Part shown: in pieces, positions 29,485 through 37,198 of the stretch | How positions within the stretch are numbered: position 1 is the first letter of the stretch | Layout: every line of letters begins with the position of its first letter | Assembly: GCA_937995595.1 (NCBI GenBank) | Contig: CALKJW010000037.1 | Coordinates: 1-64,000, forward strand | DNA from: an uncultured Phycisphaerales bacterium | GTDB taxonomy: Bacteria > Planctomycetota > Phycisphaerae > Phycisphaerales > UBA1924 | Reading direction: 5' to 3' | Length of the DNA: 64,000 nucleotides | Notes under the pieces: generated by a model | What the model was told of the DNA's origin: nothing | What the model saw: the letters and a program-made list of their open reading frames with translations, nothing else | The model's database searches: none | Translations under genes and position numbers: made by a program

Positions 29485-29530
29485 GTGCTGCTCCTGCCTC
29501 GCCGCGCCATGAGAGGGTGCCGCGGCCCCG

Positions 29531-29536
29531 ATTCTA
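29531..29536 (-). promoter_or_regulatory. TAGAAT -10 box for VKOR-DsbA fusion
   Basis: Would give a leader of about 40 nt with a GGAG ribosome-binding site before the GTG at 29484. Confidence 0.35.
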
Positions 29537-29604
29537 CCGGCGACGGCGCGCCCGGTAGCCGCCGAACGGACGCGTTCGGAAGGGGTGCGGGCGAGCGGCG
29601 AACC

Positions 29605-29610
29605 TATCCT
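29605..29610 (+). promoter_or_regulatory. TATCCT -10 box upstream of tRNA-Val
   Basis: Ends 13 nt before the first base of the tRNA, a suitable distance for a short 5' leader. Confidence 0.35.
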
Positions 29611-29623
29611 TGGGCATACCCGC

Positions 29624-29697
29624 GGGCGGGTAGCTCAGTTGGCCAGAGCATTCGCCTTACACGCGAAGGGTCCCGGGTTCGAGTCCCGGCCTGCCCA
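29624..29697 (+). tRNA. tRNA-Val (anticodon UAC)
   Basis: 74 nt that fold as a cloverleaf: acceptor GGGCGGG/CCTGCCC (one G-U), D arm GCTC/GAGC, anticodon arm TTCGC-CTTACAC-GCGAA with anticodon TAC, T arm CCGGG-TTCGAGT-CCCGG, discriminator A. CCA is not encoded. The waaA gene starts 38 nt downstream on the same strand. Confidence 0.95.
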
Positions 29698-29734
29698 CTT
29701 CTGGAGGCGCGCCCTCCGCCGTCCGCTGCCCCGC

Positions 29735-31027
29735 ATGAACCTCCTCGACGCCCTGTACCTGCCCGCCGCCGTCGTCACCGCGCCGTGGTGGGCGCGCAAG
29801 ACGCGCGGCGGCTGGTCGGAGCGCTTCGGCCGCATCGATCCCCTGCCGCCCCCGCCGCCCGGCCGCGGGCGCGTGCTGCTGCACGCGGTCTCCGTCGGCG
29901 AGGTGAACACGCTGCGCGCCCTGGCGCCGATGCTGGCGCGCGACGCCGACGTGGTCGTCAGCGCGACGACCGACACGGGCCTTGCGCGGGCCCGCGCGCT
30001 CTTCGAGCCCGCCGGCGCCGAGCCGGTCGCGCGCGTCGTCCGCTACCCGCTGGACTTCTCTCCCGCCGTCGAACGCTTCCTCGACGCGGTTCGCCCCGAC
30101 GCCGTCGCGCTGGTCGAACTCGAACTGTGGCCAAACTTCGTCGCCCGCTGCCGCCGCCGCGGCGTGCCGGTGTGCGTCATCAACGGGCGCCTGAGCGCGC
30201 GGTCGTTCCGCGGCTACCACCGCTTCCGCTCTTTCTTCGCGGGCACGTTCGGCGCGCTGGAGTTCGCCGCGGTTCAGGACGCGGCGTACGCCGAGCGGTT
30301 TGCCGCGATGGGCGTGCCCGAGCCTCGCGTGCGCATCACCGGCAGCATGAAGTGGGACTCGGTGAGCCTTTCCGACGACGTGCCCGGCGCGCAGGAACTC
30401 GCCGCGAGCATGGGCATCGACCGGTCGCGCCCGCTGGTCGTCGCGGGCTCGACGGCGGAACTGCCCGGCGATCGGCAGTGCGAGGAGCACCTGCTGCACG
30501 AGGCCTGCCCCCCGGGCGTGCAGTTGCTCTGCGCCCCGCGGAAGCCCGAGCGCTTCGACGCCGCGTTCGCCGCGCTCGGCGGCGAGGGGCGTTGCGTGCG
30601 CCGCACGGCCGCGCGCGGCGGCGCGTCGCGACCCGCCGCGGATCGTTTCCTGCTCGACACCATCGGCGAACTCCGCGCGGCGTACGCCCTGGCCGACGTC
30701 GCCGTCATCGGCCGGTCGTTCGGCGGCCTGCACGGGTCCGACCCGATCGAGCCGATCGCCCTCGGAAAGCCGACGATCATCGGCCCGCGCTACGCCAACT
30801 TCGAGTCGATCGTCGCGGAGTTCCGGGCCGCGGGCGCGCTGGAGGTCGTCGAGCCCGGCGACCTCCGCCGCGCGCTGGCCGGGCTGCTGGCCGACCCGGC
30901 CCGCGCCGCGGCTATGGGACGGGCCGGGAAAGAGTGCGTCCGGGCCAACCAGGGGGCCACCGCACGCCACGCGGCAATGATCCTGCAGATGATCGGCGTG
31001 CGAACCGCATCCGCCGCGCGGGCGTAG
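29735..31027 (+). CDS. waaA: 3-deoxy-D-manno-octulosonic acid (Kdo) transferase
   Basis: 430 residues, GT30 family. It moves Kdo from CMP-Kdo to lipid A precursor at the inner membrane, so the host makes an LPS-type outer membrane. Motifs: RVLLHAVSVGEVNTLRAL, SATTDTG, ELELWPNFV, VINGRLSARSFRGYHR, ITGSMKWD, ADVAVIGRSFGGLHGSDPIEPIALGKPTIIGP. N-terminal helix MNLLDALYLPAAVVTAP anchors it. There is neither a Shine-Dalgarno nor a -10 box before the ATG; transcription from the tRNA promoter is plausible. A terminator-like hairpin follows. Confidence 0.92.
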   Translation: MNLLDALYLPAAVVTAPWWARKTRGGWSERFGRIDPLPPPPPGRGRVLLHAVSVGEVNTLRALAPMLARDADVVVSATTDTGLARARALFEPAGAEPVARVVRYPLDFSPAVERFLDAVRPDAVALVELELWPNFVARCRRRGVPVCVINGRLSARSFRGYHRFRSFFAGTFGALEFAAVQDAAYAERFAAMGVPEPRVRITGSMKWDSVSLSDDVPGAQELAASMGIDRSRPLVVAGSTAELPGDRQCEEHLLHEACPPGVQLLCAPRKPERFDAAFAALGGEGRCVRRTAARGGASRPAADRFLLDTIGELRAAYALADVAVIGRSFGGLHGSDPIEPIALGKPTIIGPRYANFESIVAEFRAAGALEVVEPGDLRRALAGLLADPARAAAMGRAGKECVRANQGATARHAAMILQMIGVRTASAARA

Positions 31028-31094
31028 ACGTATACACAGGCAGATCACACCGCGGCGGAGGCCGCCCGAAGCCGCGTCACGAGCCTCTTCTCTC

Positions 31095-31143
31095 AACTCC
31101 GGGTCGATCGCCCAAACGGACCGGGCGACGGACTCGGAGTTTT
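31095..31143 (+). terminator. Rho-independent-type terminator after waaA
   Basis: AACTCCG (31095-31101) pairs with CGGAGTT (31135-31141), with an inner TCGCCC/GGGCGA stem, followed by TTT. Lies between convergent waaA and the short aldehyde dehydrogenase-like gene. Confidence 0.6.
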
Positions 31144-31158
31144 GTCATGGTCCAGCGC

Positions 31159-32073
31159 TCACGCCGCGCTGGGGTGCCAGATCGTCTTCATCTCGACCAC
31201 CGGCTCGATCCACCACGGCGATTCGCACGCCGCGGCGTCGAACCAGTCCACCTCACCGCGCGTGACCTTGGCGCCCTTGTTGCCCGTCGCCTTGTGGTCA
31301 AGCACCCTCACGCGCTTGACGTTCTCCGCCGCGCCCTCGCGCAGCACGCGGGCCTGATCGGCCGACACGCCCGCCGCGAGCACGGCGTCTATGTCGCGGT
31401 GCCCCGCGATGACGGTCGTCAGTTCGTCGCGCGTTCCGGTCAGCAGGTTCAGCACACCGCCCGGCAGGTCGCTGGTCGCAAAGACCTCGGCCAGCACCGC
31501 CGCGGCGATGGGCTGGCCGCCGTCCGCTCCCACGACCGCGACCACCGCGTTCCCGGCGCACAGCGCGGGCGCACAGAGCGAGACGAGCCCGAGCAGGCCC
31601 GGAGCATCGGGCGCGACGACCGCGACCACGCCCGTCGGCTCGGGCACGGTGAAGTTGTAGTACGGACCCGCCACCGCGTTGTTGCACCCCAGCACCTGCG
31701 CGAACTTGTCGGCCCAGCCCGCGTACGCGACGAGCCGGTCGATCGACACTTCGACCTCGCGTCTGGCCGCGGCGGGCCTCCCGCCGCCGACAACCAGCGC
31801 AGCGGCCAACTCGCCGCGCTTGCCCTCCATCATCTCGGCCATGCGGTAGAGGATCTGCCCGCGCAGGTAGGCGGTCGCGTTGCGCCAACCGGGCAGAGCC
31901 TTCCGCGCTGCGGAGACGGCGTCGCGCAGGTCCTTGCGCGACGCGTGGCAGACGTGCGCGACGACGCGCCCGCGCGCATCGGCAACGGCGATCGTCCGCC
32001 CGCTCTCGGAGCGCGGGAACTTGCCGTCGATGAAGAGTTTGTAGGTCTTGTTGACTTCGAGTCGGGTCGTCAT
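31159..32073 (-). CDS. Truncated aldehyde dehydrogenase-like protein without catalytic Cys
   Basis: 304 residues, against about 480 for a full ALDH. It covers the N-terminal and NAD-binding parts (YKLFIDGKFPRSESGR, WRNATAYLRGQILYRMAEMM, VPEPTGVVAVVAPDAPGLLG, LPGGVLNLLTGTRDEL) and then ends with a different short tail; the GGK glutamate, the FxNxGQxC cysteine and the oligomerisation C-terminus are missing. It cannot oxidise an aldehyde alone. It may be a partner subunit of the complete ALDH upstream or a decayed paralogue; coding quality is good throughout, which argues for function. The gene is separated from the complete ALDH by a GxxExxY cassette. Confidence 0.75.
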   Translation of the reverse strand: MTTRLEVNKTYKLFIDGKFPRSESGRTIAVADARGRVVAHVCHASRKDLRDAVSAARKALPGWRNATAYLRGQILYRMAEMMEGKRGELAAALVVGGGRPAAARREVEVSIDRLVAYAGWADKFAQVLGCNNAVAGPYYNFTVPEPTGVVAVVAPDAPGLLGLVSLCAPALCAGNAVVAVVGADGGQPIAAAVLAEVFATSDLPGGVLNLLTGTRDELTTVIAGHRDIDAVLAAGVSADQARVLREGAAENVKRVRVLDHKATGNKGAKVTRGEVDWFDAAACESPWWIEPVVEMKTIWHPSAA

Positions 32074-32085
32074 GGGAGTACTTTC

Positions 32086-32114
32086 AACACGGGGGCGCAC
32101 AGAGGCACACGGAG
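32086..32114 (+). repeat. Left inverted end of GxxExxY cassette
   Basis: 29 nt beginning AACACGG and ending CACGGAG; imperfect inverted copy at 32519-32547. Confidence 0.55.
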
Positions 32115-32130
32115 AATCAACATCGGCCGA

Positions 32131-32511
32131 TCAGAGCACGCGGCGGACAATGCCGTCGCGCAAGTGCTGGATGTTGAAGTTCAGGAGGGGGCCTGCTCGG
32201 CATCCAAGCAGACGCATGTGTGTGAACAGTTGCGACTCGTGTACAGGCATCAGTTTGTCAACCGACTTCAGCTCGACGATCACCACGCCCTCCACCATCA
32301 AGTCGAGCCGAAACCCGCAGTCGAGTCGTTGGTCCTTGTAAACCACCGGCACCGGCAGTTGCCGAACGACGGATAAGCCTCGCCCGTTCAGTTCGTACGC
32401 CATGCACTTCTCATAGACCGACTCCAGCAGGCCCGGCCCGAGTTGCGAGTGAACCTCCAACGCCGCGCCGAGGAACTGAGGCGTGAGTTCCTTGTGGACC
32501 AGCTCCGCCAT
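32131..32511 (-). CDS. GxxExxY family protein (PD-(D/E)XK-like)
   Basis: 126 residues. The defining motif is GLLESVYEK (residues 27-35); the rest of the family pattern is FRLDLMVEGVVIVELKSV (the D...ExK-like core) and HESQLFTHMRLLG. The core resembles PD-(D/E)XK nuclease folds, but the biological role of the family is not known to me. GGAG 10 nt before the ATG, lying inside the right inverted repeat, fixes the start. It interrupts an aldehyde dehydrogenase operon and is bounded by inverted repeats, so it looks like a selfish or passenger gene. Confidence 0.85.
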   Translation of the reverse strand: MAELVHKELTPQFLGAALEVHSQLGPGLLESVYEKCMAYELNGRGLSVVRQLPVPVVYKDQRLDCGFRLDLMVEGVVIVELKSVDKLMPVHESQLFTHMRLLGCRAGPLLNFNIQHLRDGIVRRVL

Positions 32512-32518
32512 GCCATCA

Positions 32519-32547
32519 CTCCGTGCAACCCCGTGCGCCTCCGTGTT
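32519..32547 (-). repeat. Right inverted end of GxxExxY cassette
   Basis: Reads AACACGG...CACGGAG on the minus strand. Its last bases supply the GGAG ribosome-binding site of the GxxExxY gene. Confidence 0.55.
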
Positions 32548-32555
32548 CGAAGCCT

Positions 32556-34232
32556 TCACACCTCCACGTACGCCCGCAGCCCCTGCATCCCTCCCTCTCT
32601 GCCAAAGCCCGACTCCTTGAACCCCCCGAACGGGCTCGCCGCGTCGAACCTGTTGTACGTGTTCAGCCACACCACCCCCGCTTCGAGCCTGCGCGCGATC
32701 TCGAAGATCTTCGACCCCTTGTCCGTCCACACGCCCGCGGCCAGCCCGTACGGCGAGTTGTTCGCCCGCGTCAGCGCCTCCTCCGGCGTGCGGAAACTCA
32801 TCACCGCCAGCACCGGTCCGAAGATCTCCTCCCGCGCGATCGTGTGCGACGGCTGCACGCCCTTGAAGAAGCACGGCCGGCACCAGAAGCCGCGCTCGGG
32901 CAACCCGGCACGCACCAGAGCACGCGCTCCGGGTTCCGGGTTCCGGGTTCCGCGTTGGCCGCCTGATCGCCCGGAACCCGGAACCCGAGACCCAGACCCC
33001 GGAATGCAGAGCTCAGCACCTTCGGCCTCACCCGCGGCAAGGTACCCCTCGATCTTCTCGAGTTGCGCCCGCGAGTTGATCGCCCCGAGGTCGGTGTTCT
33101 TGTCCATCGGGTCGCCGACGCGCAGGCTCGCCAGCCGGATCGCCAGTTTCGCCGTCACCTCGTCGAGCACGCCCTCCTGCACAAACAGCCGCGAGCCCGC
33201 GCAGCACACGTGCCCCTGGTTGAAGTAGATCCCCTGCACGATCCCCTCGACCGCCTGGTCGATGCTCGCGTCGTCGAAGATGATGTTGGCCGACTTGCCG
33301 CCCAGTTCGAGCGTGAGCCGCTTGCCCGTCCCCGCCACCGCCGCGGCGATCTTCTTGCCCACCTCCGTCGAGCCCGTGAACGCGATCTTGTCGATGCCGG
33401 GGTGGTTGACGATCGCCGCGCCCGTGCGCCCGTCGCCGGTCACGATGTTCACCACGCCCGGCGGCAGGCCCACCTCGTCGCAGATCTCCGCCAGCCGCAG
33501 CGCGGTCAGCGGGGTGGTCTCCGCGGGCTTCAGGACGACCGTGTTCCCGCACGCCAGCGCCGGCGCGATCTTCCACGCGGCCATCAGCAGCGGGAAGTTC
33601 CACGGGATGATCTGCCCGCACACGCCGACGGGCCGCGGAGTTCTCCCCGCAAAGGCGTACTCCAACTTGTCCGCCCAGCCCGCGTGATAGAAGAAGTGCT
33701 GGGCCGCGAGCGGCACGTCGACGTCGCGCGACTCGCGGATCGGCTTGCCGCCGTTGAGCGTCTCCAGCACCGCCAGTTCGCGCGCACGCTCCTGGATCCG
33801 CCGCGCGATGCGGTACAGGTACTTGCCGCGCTCCTTGCCCGGCAGCGCGGCCCACTTCGGCTGCGCGCGCCGCGCCGCGGCGACCGCCGCGTCAACCTCC
33901 GCCGCGCCGGCCTGCGTGACCTCGGCCAGCGTCTGCTCGGTCGCGGGGTTGATGGTCGCGAACACGCCCCTGTCGCCGCGCATCTTCCCGCCGCGCGGTG
34001 CGATCCACTTGCCGTCGATGTACAGGCCGTAGCGGTCCGCGATCTGCACCTTCACCGTCTCGGGCGCGGGGGCATAGTCCCACGCCGCGCCGAACTCCAG
34101 CGCCCCCCCGCCCCCCCCGCCCGGCCCGGATGTCGCGCGTGATTTCACGTGCACGAGCGCCGTCTCCGGCGCGGCGGTCTGGGTCGATTCACCGGCGTTT
34201 TCGATCGTCTTGCCGCTGCTGGGCGTGGTCAT
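32556..34232 (-). CDS. Aldehyde dehydrogenase with in-frame repeat insertion
   Basis: 558 residues, longer than the usual ~490. ALDH motifs: IIPWNFPLLMAAWKIAPALACGNTVVLKP, FTGSTEVGK, general base Glu309 (LELGGK), catalytic Cys343 (NQGHVCCAG, His replacing the usual Gln), EEIFGPVL and FGGFKESGFGRE. It oxidises an aldehyde to an acid with NAD(P). Beside deoC, acetaldehyde is the likely substrate. Residues about 410-440 are an extra segment encoded by a palindromic GGGTTCC repeat, next to the active-site domain surface. The N-terminal ~60 residues are low complexity (Gly tract on runs of seven and eight C). TATCCT ends 6 nt before the ATG, the leaderless pattern. Confidence 0.9.
   Translation of the reverse strand: MTTPSSGKTIENAGESTQTAAPETALVHVKSRATSGPGGGGGGALEFGAAWDYAPAPETVKVQIADRYGLYIDGKWIAPRGGKMRGDRGVFATINPATEQTLAEVTQAGAAEVDAAVAAARRAQPKWAALPGKERGKYLYRIARRIQERARELAVLETLNGGKPIRESRDVDVPLAAQHFFYHAGWADKLEYAFAGRTPRPVGVCGQIIPWNFPLLMAAWKIAPALACGNTVVLKPAETTPLTALRLAEICDEVGLPPGVVNIVTGDGRTGAAIVNHPGIDKIAFTGSTEVGKKIAAAVAGTGKRLTLELGGKSANIIFDDASIDQAVEGIVQGIYFNQGHVCCAGSRLFVQEGVLDEVTAKLAIRLASLRVGDPMDKNTDLGAINSRAQLEKIEGYLAAGEAEGAELCIPGSGSRVPGSGRSGGQRGTRNPEPGARALVRAGLPERGFWCRPCFFKGVQPSHTIAREEIFGPVLAVMSFRTPEEALTRANNSPYGLAAGVWTDKGSKIFEIARRLEAGVVWLNTYNRFDAASPFGGFKESGFGREGGMQGLRAYVEV
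32931..32989. repeat. Palindromic GGGTTCC repeat inserted in ALDH coding sequence
   Basis: Three tandem GGGTTCC (32931-32951), a 20-nt spacer and two tandem GGAACCC (32973-32986) form an inverted pair. The inserted, non-homologous stretch covers about 32915-33008 and keeps the frame. Confidence 0.7.
34103..34118 (-). repeat. C7 and C8 homopolymer runs in ALDH 5' coding region
   Basis: C7 at 34103-34109 and C8 at 34111-34118 encode a poly-Gly stretch. Slippage there would shift the frame of the dehydrogenase. Confidence 0.5.
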
Positions 34233-34238
34233 GCCGGG

Positions 34239-34244
34239 AGGATA
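34239..34244 (-). promoter_or_regulatory. TATCCT -10 box, leaderless spacing (6 nt) to ALDH
   Basis: Minus-strand TATCCT ends 6 nt before the ATG at 34232. Confidence 0.5.
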
Positions 34245-34254
34245 GGTGCGGTGA

Positions 34255-34629
34255 TCACTCGATCCGCTCCGCGGCGAACACGCGAGTCACGCCGCGCTCC
34301 ACGTACCGCTTCTCGACCCACCGCCCAACCAGCGTGACGCGCCGCCCATCGGCCGCACGCGCGGCGTCGCGCACACGCGAGACATCCACCTCGGTCTGTT
34401 TCGCGCCCGGCCCGTCGCCATCGAGCAAGGCCCAACCCGTGTGCTCGCCGCCGATGCCCATAAAACCGCCGCGCAGCGTGCCCGTGAGTCGGTCCATGGT
34501 CTCTCCCGGAGTGACGGGCGCCTCGCCTTTGCGCGGCTCGACACCGGACGATGCGCAGCCGCTCGCGGCCAGGATCAGCGCGCCCGCGAACGCGATTGCT
34601 GCGAACTGACCGTGCATGGTGCTCGTCAT
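34255..34629 (-). CDS. Small lipoprotein of unknown function
   Basis: 124 residues from ATG 34629 (ATG 34617 also possible). Signal peptide with lipobox ASGC at about residues 22-25 (ILAASGCASS). The mature part ends with a beta-rich domain of OB-like look (GRRVTLVGRWVEKRYVERGVTRVFAAERIE), close to small lipoproteins that carry a nucleic-acid-binding-like OB fold. Lies between deoC and the ALDH on the same strand, 22 nt before the ALDH start, overlapping the latter's promoter. No function can be given. Confidence 0.6.
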   Translation of the reverse strand: MTSTMHGQFAAIAFAGALILAASGCASSGVEPRKGEAPVTPGETMDRLTGTLRGGFMGIGGEHTGWALLDGDGPGAKQTEVDVSRVRDAARAADGRRVTLVGRWVEKRYVERGVTRVFAAERIE

Positions 34630-34860
34630 CCTCAGATCCCGATGGGTCCTTGTCGACTCTGGCCCGGCGCCGCTCTCCGAGCACGTGTCCGGGCCTCGAA
34701 CATCGTACCCGCACGCGAGGCGCCGCCCGCGTTCAGGCACGCCGGCGCCGCAAGGCCGATCCTGATCGGCGAACGTCCGATGAGCGGGCCCTCCGCTCGC
34801 CCTCCGCGTTTCCCCATGACGCCCGCTGCAGGCAGCCCATTTTCGACATCCGACGCGGGC

Positions 34861-35820
34861 CTATGCCTCGGCGTAGTCGTAGCGTGCCGAGTACTTCCCG
34901 CAGCCCTGCTTGCGGATCTGCCGCACAAGGTCATCCACCAGCGCACTGGCGCCGAAGCGGAACCAGTCGGGGCTGAGCCAGCGGTCGCCGAGTGTCTCCT
35001 TCACCATCACGAGGTAGTGCAGGGCGTCCTTGGCCGTGCGGATCCCACCCGCGGGCTTCATGCCGATCATGTGGCCGGTTGTGAGAAAACAGTCGCGGAT
35101 CGCTTCGAGCATGCAGAGCGTCACCGGCATCGTCGCGGCGGGAGTCACCTTGCCGGTGCTGGTCTTGATGAAACCCGTCCCCGCCGGCCCGTCCCCGCCG
35201 TCAACCAGCAGCGCTTCGATCGCAAGATCGCTGGCGCGCCGGACGTTGTCGTAGGTCTCCAGTTCGCCCGTCTCGAGGATCACCTTCAGGTGCACGTGCG
35301 CCGGCGCGTCGCCGCCGATCGAGGCCGAGGCGTTGCACACCGCCTTGAACTCGCGGATCTCTTCAAAGACCAGGTCGCGCTTGCCCGCCAGAAACGCCCC
35401 GCGCGAGATCACCATGTCGATCTCGTCGGCCCCGTCGCGGATCGCCCGGCGCGTGTCCTCGATGCGCACCGCCAGCGGGTACTGCCCGCTCGGGAACCCC
35501 GTCGCGACGCTGGCCACCTTCACGCCCGAGTCCCCGAGCGCCTCTCTCGCAACGGCCACCAGGGTCGGATACACGCACACCGCCGCGACGGGCGCGAGCG
35601 GCCGGCCCTTGTGATCGACTCCCGGCGTGAGCGCCTTGCGGCACAGCGCCCGCACCTTCTCCGGCGAGTCCTTGCCTTCGAGCGTGGTCAGATCGACCAT
35701 CGACATCGCCAGACGCAGGCCGGCGAGTTTGGCCGTGGTCTTGATCGAGCGCGTCCTGAACGACGCGGCCCGCTGCTCGAGCATCACGGCGTCAACGGTG
35801 CGTGCGGGAAGGCTCTTCAT
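34861..35820 (-). CDS. deoC: Deoxyribose-phosphate aldolase
   Basis: 319 residues, class I aldolase. It splits 2-deoxyribose-5-phosphate into acetaldehyde and glyceraldehyde-3-phosphate in nucleoside catabolism. The Schiff-base Lys is in GFIKTSTGK, the second active-site Lys in GMKPAGGIRT, the Asp in DEIDMVI. It is longer than E. coli DeoC (about 260) because of an N-terminal extension seen in many other bacteria. ATG 35820 follows nuoD by 88 nt; no strong Shine-Dalgarno. Two ALDH genes downstream would remove acetaldehyde. No bacterial microcompartment shell genes are present. Confidence 0.93.
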   Translation of the reverse strand: MKSLPARTVDAVMLEQRAASFRTRSIKTTAKLAGLRLAMSMVDLTTLEGKDSPEKVRALCRKALTPGVDHKGRPLAPVAAVCVYPTLVAVAREALGDSGVKVASVATGFPSGQYPLAVRIEDTRRAIRDGADEIDMVISRGAFLAGKRDLVFEEIREFKAVCNASASIGGDAPAHVHLKVILETGELETYDNVRRASDLAIEALLVDGGDGPAGTGFIKTSTGKVTPAATMPVTLCMLEAIRDCFLTTGHMIGMKPAGGIRTAKDALHYLVMVKETLGDRWLSPDWFRFGASALVDDLVRQIRKQGCGKYSARYDYAEA

Positions 35821-35908
35821 GCGGGAAGTCCCGTGGGAGAGCGGCAGGCCGGCCAGGCGGCGCCCCGGCGCGTCGACGCGCCGCGCCCCGGCGCAGCGCG
35901 TCAACGCC

Positions 35909-37198
35909 TCACCGGTCCAGTTCCGCGGCGACAACGTTGATCGAACCCAGGATCGCCGGGACGTCCGACAGCAGGTGGCCCTCGGTCAGCCGCGCCATCA
36001 CCGAGTAGTTGATGAAGCACGCCGGCCGCGTCCGCACGCGGAACGACCGCGGCGAGCCGTCGGCCACGATGTAGAACCCCTGCTCGCCGTTGGGTCCCTC
36101 GTTGCAGCCGTAGGCCTCCGCGACCGGCGCCTTCCAGCCGCGGTTGGACATCACCAGTTCGAAGTGCTGGATCAGGCCCTCGATCGAGCCGTACACGTCC
36201 TTCTTGGGCGGCTTGACCATCTTCGCGTCGGCGTAGGTGTCGACCGGCCCGCCGGGGATGGCGTCGATCAACTGCCGCACGATGTGCATCGACTGCTTGA
36301 TCTCCTCGACGCGCACGCGGAAGCGCGCGTACGCGTCGCCCTCCAGCGCGATCGGCACCTTGAACTCGACCGCGGGCGCGCCGGCGTTGTCCCAGTTGTC
36401 CTTGTAGCACAGGTACGGGAAGTCCTTGCGCAGGTCGCGCTTCACGCCGCTGGCGCGGGCCATCGGCCCCGAGAGCGAGTGCGCGACCGCCTCGTCGTGC
36501 CCGATCTGCCCGACGCCCTGCGTGCGGTCGATGAAGATGCGGTTGGCGTTCAGCAGGCCCTCGAACTCGTCGACCGCGCGCGGCAGGTCGTCGTTGACCA
36601 GGTCCTTGACCAGCTTGCGGAACACCGCCTCGTCGGGCAGGTCCTGCATCAGCCCGCCGACGCGCGTCCAGTCGGCGTGGAATCGCTGACCCGCGATGAA
36701 GTCGCAGATGTCGTAGATCTTCTCGCGCGGGTTGAAGGCGAACAGGAACGCCGTGATCGCCCCGAGGTCCAGCGCCGCCGCGCCCACGCACAGCAGGTGG
36801 TTCTGGATCCGCGCCAGTTCGTTCATGATCGTCCGCAGCGCCTTGCAGCGCGGCGTGATCTCGATCCCGAACAGCGTCTCCACCGCCCCGTGCCACGTGA
36901 TGTCGTTGTGGATCGGCGACAGGTAGTCCATCCGCGAGACGATCGTCACGTACTGGTTGTAGTCCAGGTGCTCGCCGAGTTTCTCAAAGCCCGAGTGCAG
37001 GTAACCGATGTGCGGCGTGCAGCGCGCCACGCGCTCGCCGTCGAGTTCCAGCACCAGCCGCAGCGTGGTGTGCGTCGCCGGGTGCTGCGGGCCGAAGTTC
37101 AGCACCCAGCGCTCGCCCGTGTCCACGTGCTCCCTCAGGTAGCCCGTGCTCTCGGCGTCGACGTCGATTCCCTGCTCGGGTCGGATCGTGTACGGCAT
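35909..37198 (-). CDS. nuoD: NADH-quinone oxidoreductase subunit D
   Basis: 429 residues. The 49-kDa subunit of complex I that with NuoB forms the quinone site at the cytoplasmic face of the inner membrane. Family motifs: NFGPQHPATHTTLRLVLELDGE, HIGYLHSGFEKL, DYLSPIHND, RTIMNELARIQNHLL, EAYGCNEGPNGEQGFYIVADGSPRSFRVRTRPACFINYS. Length is typical. It stands alone here; nuoI is 16 kb away, also alone. TACGAT ends 8 nt before the ATG, slightly longer than the leaderless spacing. Confidence 0.95.
   Translation of the reverse strand: MPYTIRPEQGIDVDAESTGYLREHVDTGERWVLNFGPQHPATHTTLRLVLELDGERVARCTPHIGYLHSGFEKLGEHLDYNQYVTIVSRMDYLSPIHNDITWHGAVETLFGIEITPRCKALRTIMNELARIQNHLLCVGAAALDLGAITAFLFAFNPREKIYDICDFIAGQRFHADWTRVGGLMQDLPDEAVFRKLVKDLVNDDLPRAVDEFEGLLNANRIFIDRTQGVGQIGHDEAVAHSLSGPMARASGVKRDLRKDFPYLCYKDNWDNAGAPAVEFKVPIALEGDAYARFRVRVEEIKQSMHIVRQLIDAIPGGPVDTYADAKMVKPPKKDVYGSIEGLIQHFELVMSNRGWKAPVAEAYGCNEGPNGEQGFYIVADGSPRSFRVRTRPACFINYSVMARLTEGHLLSDVPAILGSINVVAAELDR

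Follow-up and report, generated by a model that had tools for sequence, protein, structure and literature searches.

Introduction

The ends of MITEs correspond to the ends of a transposase-bearing IS. In REPIN/RAYT systems, as described in the available portion of Bertels and Rainey (2011, PMC3116915), short repeats occur as inverted pairs in extragenic space, many of them without a gene and with the potential to form hairpins, and, according to the accessible part of PMC3733652, the repeats linked to RAYTs carry a GTAG tag at the repeat end. The same portion of the latter source also describes TIRtron/TIRYT elements, in which a single small gene lies between inverted repeats and the repeats form moderately abundant families. 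Here we compare with these systems a locus of an uncultured Phycisphaerales bacterium, located on contig 37 of an assembly of 3.1 Mb in 55 contigs, in which a gene for a GxxExxY protein lies between inverted ends in the gap between two ALDH genes (Table 1). Throughout the text, the window is the whole stretch of 64,000 nucleotides that was analysed.

The cassette and its ends

The first-pass annotation of the window had described a cassette with inverted ends matching in 23 of 29 nucleotides, and the match was found again between 32086–32114 and 32519–32547; a repeat finder extends both arms to 34 nt at 76% (Table 1). As it had also stated, the cassette takes up 462 nt of the gap: the distance from the stop of the long ALDH gene to the start of the short one was measured as 482 nt, so that 20 nt are left after removal. 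The ribosome-binding site which it had placed in the right end is likely a GGAG situated 7 nt upstream of the ATG of the GxxExxY gene, within the innermost of the words of the 5′ arm. In the lowest-energy structure predicted for the single-stranded DNA of the element, both arms pair as a closing stem, with a z of −2.2, and 5 of 100 shuffles folded equally well. A search for RNA families in 29500–36000 returned nothing known except one tRNA.

Table 1. Features of the GxxExxY cassette and of the adjacent genes (window coordinates).
Feature	Position	Strand	Description
GxxExxY gene	32131..32511	-	126 aa; PF13366 E 1.2e-38, TIGR04256
5′-side arm of GxxExxY gene	32519..32552	-	CTTCGAACACGGAGGCGCACGGGGTTGCACGGAG on minus strand; three words; repeat finder
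3′-side arm of GxxExxY gene	32081..32114	+	CTTTCAACACGGGGGCGCACAGAGGCACACGGAG; inverted relative to the other arm
Long ALDH gene	32556..34232	-	PF00171; stop just outside the element
Short ALDH gene, 304 aa	31159..32073	-	PF00171; start just outside the element

The iterated-word arrays of the ends are absent from the first-pass annotation. Arms of this kind are arrays of iterated words of 7–10 bp, with 3–4 words in each arm, CACAGAG, CGCAGAG, CACGGAG, CACCAAG, CGCAGAT and ACAGGAT being among them. The pooled end profile reads TTnAACC followed by CRCRGAG words. It comes from the 96 loci (out of 158) in which both sides have word arrays, and there the similarity of the arms sets in at about −8 and is lost at about +28. 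Words vary between loci, but are alike in the two arms of any one locus: at positions left free by the way the loci were selected, the agreement within the same locus and between different loci was 0.95/0.56, 0.84/0.42 and 0.90/0.40. Thus, the word belongs to the element and is common to both of its ends. The window arms start with AACAC, as do those of some other members, e.g. L055. The GxxExxY gene of two loci in another genome (L301 and L326 of G128) is flanked by a complete palindrome on each side, not by single arms.

Taken by itself, a 23/29 match is too weak for a claim, which is carried by the place, the orientation and the words of the arms and by the comparative data. In fact, the window has 4 distinct places, the element included, with inverted 29-nt pairs of at least 23/29 at comparable spacing. 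The alignment score of the window arms (14.0) is above that of all 71 control windows (maximum 12.0), but below the line of 15 used for the relatives, and falls inside the range obtained when arms of different loci are compared (95% point 15.5). A pattern fitted to both window arms gave 2 matches in the window and 0 in 100 shuffles and, in the whole genome, 15 matches (two of them overlapping) against 1 in the reversed control. Of these copies of the ends, for which the first-pass annotation had advised a search, only 2 of the 15 flank the window's GxxExxY gene; by eye, several others are gene-less inverted pairs, such as L006/L016 (about 200 nt apart), L007 and L013. Further word-like arrays (ctgagtgctgagtcctg; gatccgtccgatccgtcc) were seen beside element ends at L007, L011 and L014 of this genome.

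The long ALDH gene has, at 32926–33010, an in-frame insertion of about 28 codons made up of inverted GGGTTCC word arrays. Among 11 loci aligned from relatives, 10 lack it, and another stretch takes its place in G020; the insertion reads as a gene-less palindrome of another word type within a coding gene.

The GxxExxY protein

With 132.5 bits against PF13366 (cut-off 22) and 135.1 bits against TIGR04256 (cut-off 35), the 126-aa product is by profile a clear member of the GxxExxY family. Residues E30, D70, E80 and K82 (own numbering) are conserved, and the D...ExK active-site residues of PD-(D/E)XK are present; one of the conservation alignments (A2) consists of 43 sequences of our own choosing. 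The structure model (pLDDT 91.9, pTM 0.84) has the helix and strand order of the PD-(D/E)XK core fold, and by core fold and active-site residues the protein is predicted to be a PD-(D/E)XK nuclease, in agreement with the PD-(D/E)XK-like assignment of the first-pass annotation. Foldseek against the PDB gave weak matches, all with E above 0.01 (the best, LHK-Exo, at 0.015), and no sequence relative was found in the PDB at E 1. In VIA-align, the best row was SSO0001, which we take to be a Cas4 (Z 11.5, rmsd 4.2, 100 aligned); AF1548 and 3ijm had Z 8.5 each and the Holliday-junction resolvase Hjc Z 8.2 (rmsd 3.4, 87 aligned), and the top rows include, by title, restriction-endonuclease-like and resolvase entries. 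Z values near 8 may reflect the common fold alone.

PHROGs gave no family for this protein. The gene was found in 0 of 50,697 phage records, in 8 of 72,556 plasmid records and in 2 viral-contig loci, so that a phage or plasmid origin is unsupported.

Arms in relatives and in other phyla

To place the locus among its relatives, 61 genomes were compared (the window's own and 60 others), 49 of which have PF13366, at 121 places; 94 of these places were analysed, and the 27 omitted all scored below 76.2 bits. The high-scoring set comprises 68 places of at least 100 bits, 67 of them testable, with flanks of 200 nt. When the upstream flank of these 68 loci is compared with the reverse-complemented downstream flank, the two usually align as iterated-word arms. 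As counter-evidence, the first-pass annotation had named beforehand the case that all relatives carry the gene without inverted ends; instead, 57 of the 67 testable loci reached an arm score of 15, a line chosen after inspection of the data (control maxima 12.0, 11.5 and 13.5), in comparison to 0 of 71 same-size control windows (maximum 12), and 10 of the 67 stayed below. In a stricter control, the upstream flank of one locus was combined with the downstream flank of a locus from another genome, both of them possibly bearing words. These 408 swaps had a 95% point of 15.5 and a maximum of 23.5, and the real loci exceeded the former in 54 and the latter in 32 of 67 cases.

The armed gene recurs over many phyla. 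A scan of one genome per species returned at least 592 stretches, 586 of them relatives, and the best 80 were kept. The record titles of these best 80 name Bacteroidetes, Chloroflexi, Acidobacteria, Planctomycetes, several proteobacterial classes and cyanobacteria, as well as Verrucomicrobia, Nitrospinota, Methanosarcinales and others; many of the records are MAGs, so that single assignments, the archaeal included, may be binning errors. When the two viral-contig loci were added to form the all-phyla set, 54 of 77 testable loci scored at least 15, compared to 0 of 139 controls, and 23 of 77 scored below.

On the sequences compared, arms and an intact active site go together, an argument which rests on 93 testable loci, none of them dropped. 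Arms (score of at least 15) were found in 61 of the 72 loci with the catalytic lysine and in 1 of the 21 without it, and 20 of the 21 lysine-less proteins form one clade (FastTree support 1.0) in which no locus has arms. D70 and E80 are also less conserved in the low-scoring copies. In the window's family, 35 of 37 genomes have a PF13366 match below 100 bits (L005 in the window's genome), which suggests a vertically kept copy. For the arm and correlation counts, L085–L088 and L101 were removed from the low-scoring group as arm-type, a partly circular step (4 of these 5 are armed); unfiltered, 4 of 26 low-scoring loci are armed, all four with the lysine. The window's genome has a further copy (L004, G000:C7:49884-50231), about 1.2 kb from the copy L003, in which the lysine is replaced by glutamate and the arm score is 15.0.

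Gene-less copies

In the 61 genomes, a generic three-word pattern had between 0 and 155 sites each, and its reversed control 0–8. Among the 40 site loci which this pattern picked in G053 and G045, adjacent arrays face inward in 23 cases and outward in 1, the spacers are short, and the printed sequences hold no genes. In the one-contig genome G056, 100 of the 127 sites gave 80 clusters with 23 inward pairs, 0 outward and 1 same-strand; the spacers of the inward pairs measure 18–53 nt, and 34 clusters lie outside any such pair. The gene-less arms of G053 are closer to the gene arms of that genome than all 300 random draws from the loci of other genomes. For G045 the result was marginal (18 of 300 draws were equal or better), and the G153 row of this comparison is no evidence because its sites were picked by likeness to its gene arms.

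Some of these loci have a more complex architecture. Symmetric palindromes nested in palindromes, with an own word at each level, were observed in L252, L256 and L286; in L256, GCCAAG is outermost, CACAGAG next and GCAGAT innermost. In G053, L254, L259, L266, L268, L272, L276 and similar loci have a single array with common flanks, gcgcagc..gattgaaccgcggaggcgcggag..ttatgttttcagccgcactg, and read as copies of a longer dispersed repeat bearing only one arm; L254, L275 and L280 also have cgcagcaccacgctgatgcacac in common, a further conserved stretch at a distance of about 330 nt from the array, and this suggests a repeat of roughly 400 bp. Two loci of G153 (L338 and L339) are outward-facing compact palindromes with a centre like TTGAAGATCTTGAA, and resemble two element ends back to back.

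Number of sites and presence of the gene

Over the 61 genomes, the number of sites follows the number of high-scoring copies (rho 0.74): the median is 23.5 sites in the 30 genomes with a high-scoring gene and 1 in the 31 without, and rho remains 0.63 after controlling for the number of Y1 transposases and genome size. By contrast, low-scoring copies show no correlation with the sites (−0.13). Given the gene and genome size, Y1 transposases relate to the sites with a value of 0.19 (p 0.14); they add little once the gene is accounted for, and Y1/RAYT transposases as the driver are therefore unsupported.

The link was also seen in 294 genomes across the phylum, in which the arm-type gene was counted as present at a best E-value of 1e-30 or better and all matches per genome were taken as copies. 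At least 5 sites were found in 94 of 126 genomes with the high-scoring gene vs. 24 of 168 without it (OR 17.6, p 1.5e-26), and the effect persists within the 23 families holding both states (153 genomes, permutation p 0.0002). Exceptions occur in both directions. Many sites and no gene in the assembly were found in G341 (136), G110 (132) and G098 (49), and 21 of the 126 gene-bearing genomes have 0–1 sites. Four of these 21 belong to one genus, whose fetched loci have arms with the word CACGAAA, missed by the pattern; in those genomes, the arms of L302, one of these loci, are matched at many dispersed places, so that part of the 0–1-site exception is due to blindness of the pattern. The reversed control rose to 32 in G139 (279 sites) and to 17 in G342 (47 sites).

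Filled and empty sites

The comparison of related genomes for empty sites, proposed by the first-pass annotation, did reveal them. Out of 25 loci with the short ALDH gene, those of the window's genome (G000) and of G013 have a GxxExxY element in the gap, whereas in at least 7 relatives (G002, G007, G015, G020, G037, G042 and G050) the ALDH genes are adjacent, about 8–39 nt apart, with no array; in the remaining loci, a different sequence precedes the short ALDH gene or the long one was not found. The proteins of G000 and G013 share 53% identity and, ranked 48th and 73rd in the list of the respective other, are not mutual nearest relatives; the two gap copies may come from one old insertion or from two separate ones.

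Related species also differ in whether other units of this kind occupy a given site. In another genus, the element of G153 is present in G093 and absent from G229 (45 vs. 503 nt between the matched flanks), and G024 has unrelated sequence in its place. The clearest case is that of G128 and G107, whose flanks are 95.2% (460 nt) and 97.2% (2,881 nt) identical, with 867 and 61 nt, respectively, between the anchors, that is, a filled and an empty site differing by about 800 bp. The unit of G128 consists of palindrome, gene and palindrome, and the empty site of G107 has no array. Since the congeners G238, G281 and G291 carry the gene at this locus, loss from G107 is the simpler reading. At the divergence of these genome pairs, no target-site duplication was readable at the G128/G107 junction, which is resolved to about 15 nt, nor for G153/G229.

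Discussion

With somewhat more belief than doubt, we read the cassette as a gene-bearing copy of a REPIN/RAYT-like miniature mobile element run by a PD-(D/E)XK nuclease. The first-pass annotation had seen in it a minimal, transposase-free mobile unit with the GxxExxY protein as its cargo. The first half of this description stands: the unit is discrete, has inverted ends and is absent from the gap of relatives, and its only gene belongs to a nuclease family (PF13366), not to a transposase family. The second half is not supported: gene-less arms occur mainly where the gene occurs, and lysine-less proteins are without arms, so that a mobilising or maintaining role as an enzyme is the more likely one for the protein, and cargo is probably the wrong word for it.

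We infer that the arms are the substrate of the nuclease, that it moves the unit by way of a hairpin intermediate, and that host repair or replication has a role in this. The inverted word arrays would pair as a hairpin or cruciform; the nuclease would bind the iterated words as a multimer, or recognise the extruded hairpin or cruciform, and would cut at its base, giving excision or a copied end. In this way it could start the excision, copying or insertion both of the unit that encodes it and of inverted pairs without a gene at other places in the genome, which it might serve, by analogy, as RAYT transposases are thought to serve REPINs, and host replication or repair would complete the process.

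The arms might instead be moved by an unrelated transposase or by host replication or repair, with GxxExxY as a mere passenger, e.g. a repair or defence nuclease. The genomes with many sites and no gene in the assembly (G341, G110 and G098) would fit such a situation, and the several different arm words of G056 suggest more than one mover; we nevertheless consider it unlikely, because absence of the arms goes with absence of the catalytic lysine, Y1 transposases have no predictive value for the sites once the gene is accounted for, and no other gene lies between the arms in the site loci read. Also unlikely, and if anything more so, is a homing-type spread, in which the nuclease cuts gene-less palindromes that arise and spread otherwise, and homologous repair copies the gene-bearing version in. 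It leaves the number of gene-less copies unexplained, and neither the ALDH gaps of the seven relatives nor the empty G107 site has an array; if that state is ancestral, a resident palindrome was not needed there. In its favour are the nearly identical arms of the gene-bearing L031 and the gene-less L263, L264 and L274 in one genome, as well as the small size of the protein and the presence of Hjc among its structural matches.

Two further readings concern the arms themselves. That the 23/29 match of the window is due to chance, and its element outside the family, we hold to be improbable: the arms occupy both ends of the gap, in the orientation of the family and with the AACAC start of L055, their score is above all 71 control windows, their pattern occurs 15 times in the genome vs. 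once in the control, and the protein belongs to the high-scoring set with its catalytic residues kept. This has to be set against the four places of the window which reach 23/29 and against the score of 14.0, below 15 and within the range of swapped arms. Chance similarity of the ends was rejected by comparison, although a bare 23/29 is not rare in the window. The least probable case, which we regard as very remote, is that of an ordinary gene with fixed hairpins for regulation or termination instead of mobile ends; one window arm does hold the ribosome-binding site, and the arms can pair, but dozens of gene-less copies in many genomes, the syntenic presence and absence and the locus-specific words argue against it.

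More broadly, and with belief falling a little short of doubt, we suggest that a lone PD-(D/E)XK nuclease of about 125 aa could mobilise hairpin elements whose ends are inverted iterated-word arrays, as a new class of mobile DNA of bacteria and perhaps archaea; its progeny without a gene would account for a large share of the palindromic DNA that is dispersed between genes in many environmental phyla, and the specificities of ends and enzymes would diversify by nesting and by turnover of the words. We know of no PD-(D/E)XK protein which transposes DNA alone, and such an element would add to the DNA-moving machinery an enzyme class not known to work alone. For dispersed palindromes of this kind no explanation was found, and the annotations of GxxExxY, which exist in many phyla, name no function; a link between the arrays and GxxExxY gives a testable role to the family and a candidate enzyme to the repeats.

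Comparison with known systems

To our knowledge, the combination of enzyme family and end architecture matches no described mobile element, and the kind is therefore rated as new. The short Pfam and NCBIfam descriptions of PF13366 and TIGR04256 do not mention the arms, nor do the available parts of PMC8934634, PMC12085832 and PMC9756366 where they name the GxxExxY family. The open-licence literature on GxxExxY/PDDEXK_3, REPIN/RAYT, MITEs and palindromes of Planctomycetes and Chloroflexi, as far as its texts are accessible, contains no description of such elements, which may exist elsewhere. One 10-mer of the arms retrieved, among the accessible records, titles mostly on eukaryotes and viruses and one bacterial promoter prediction (PMC2412878), and longer arm words only titles on heart cells and eye development.

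Compared with Hjc and Cas4, the protein has a similar model fold and, in the case of Hjc, a similar size, but the identity in the structural rows is 13–16% (Hjc and SSO0001). The elements share with MITEs the short, non-autonomous form and the inverted ends, but the gene linked to them is a nuclease, and no transposase bearing such ends was noticed; if the protein were only a passenger, they would be a variant of MITE-like elements. As in TIRtron/TIRYT elements, one small gene lies between inverted repeats and the repeats form families, but those elements encode HUH tyrosine transposases, and their ends are not described as iterated words in the available part of the source (PMC3733652). The closest likeness is to REPIN/RAYT as far as its source text is available: in both, the pairs are inverted, many copies lack a gene, a locus bearing the gene has the same repeat, and hairpins could form. 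The differences lie in the enzyme, a PD-(D/E)XK nuclease (PF13366) here and a HUH tyrosine transposase (Y1_Tnp) there, in the arms of 3–4 iterated words, of which several types coexist and are sometimes nested, and in the end profile, TTnAACC followed by words, from which the GTAG tag is absent. On the evidence presented, the GxxExxY elements are not members of the RAYT systems and yet work alike.
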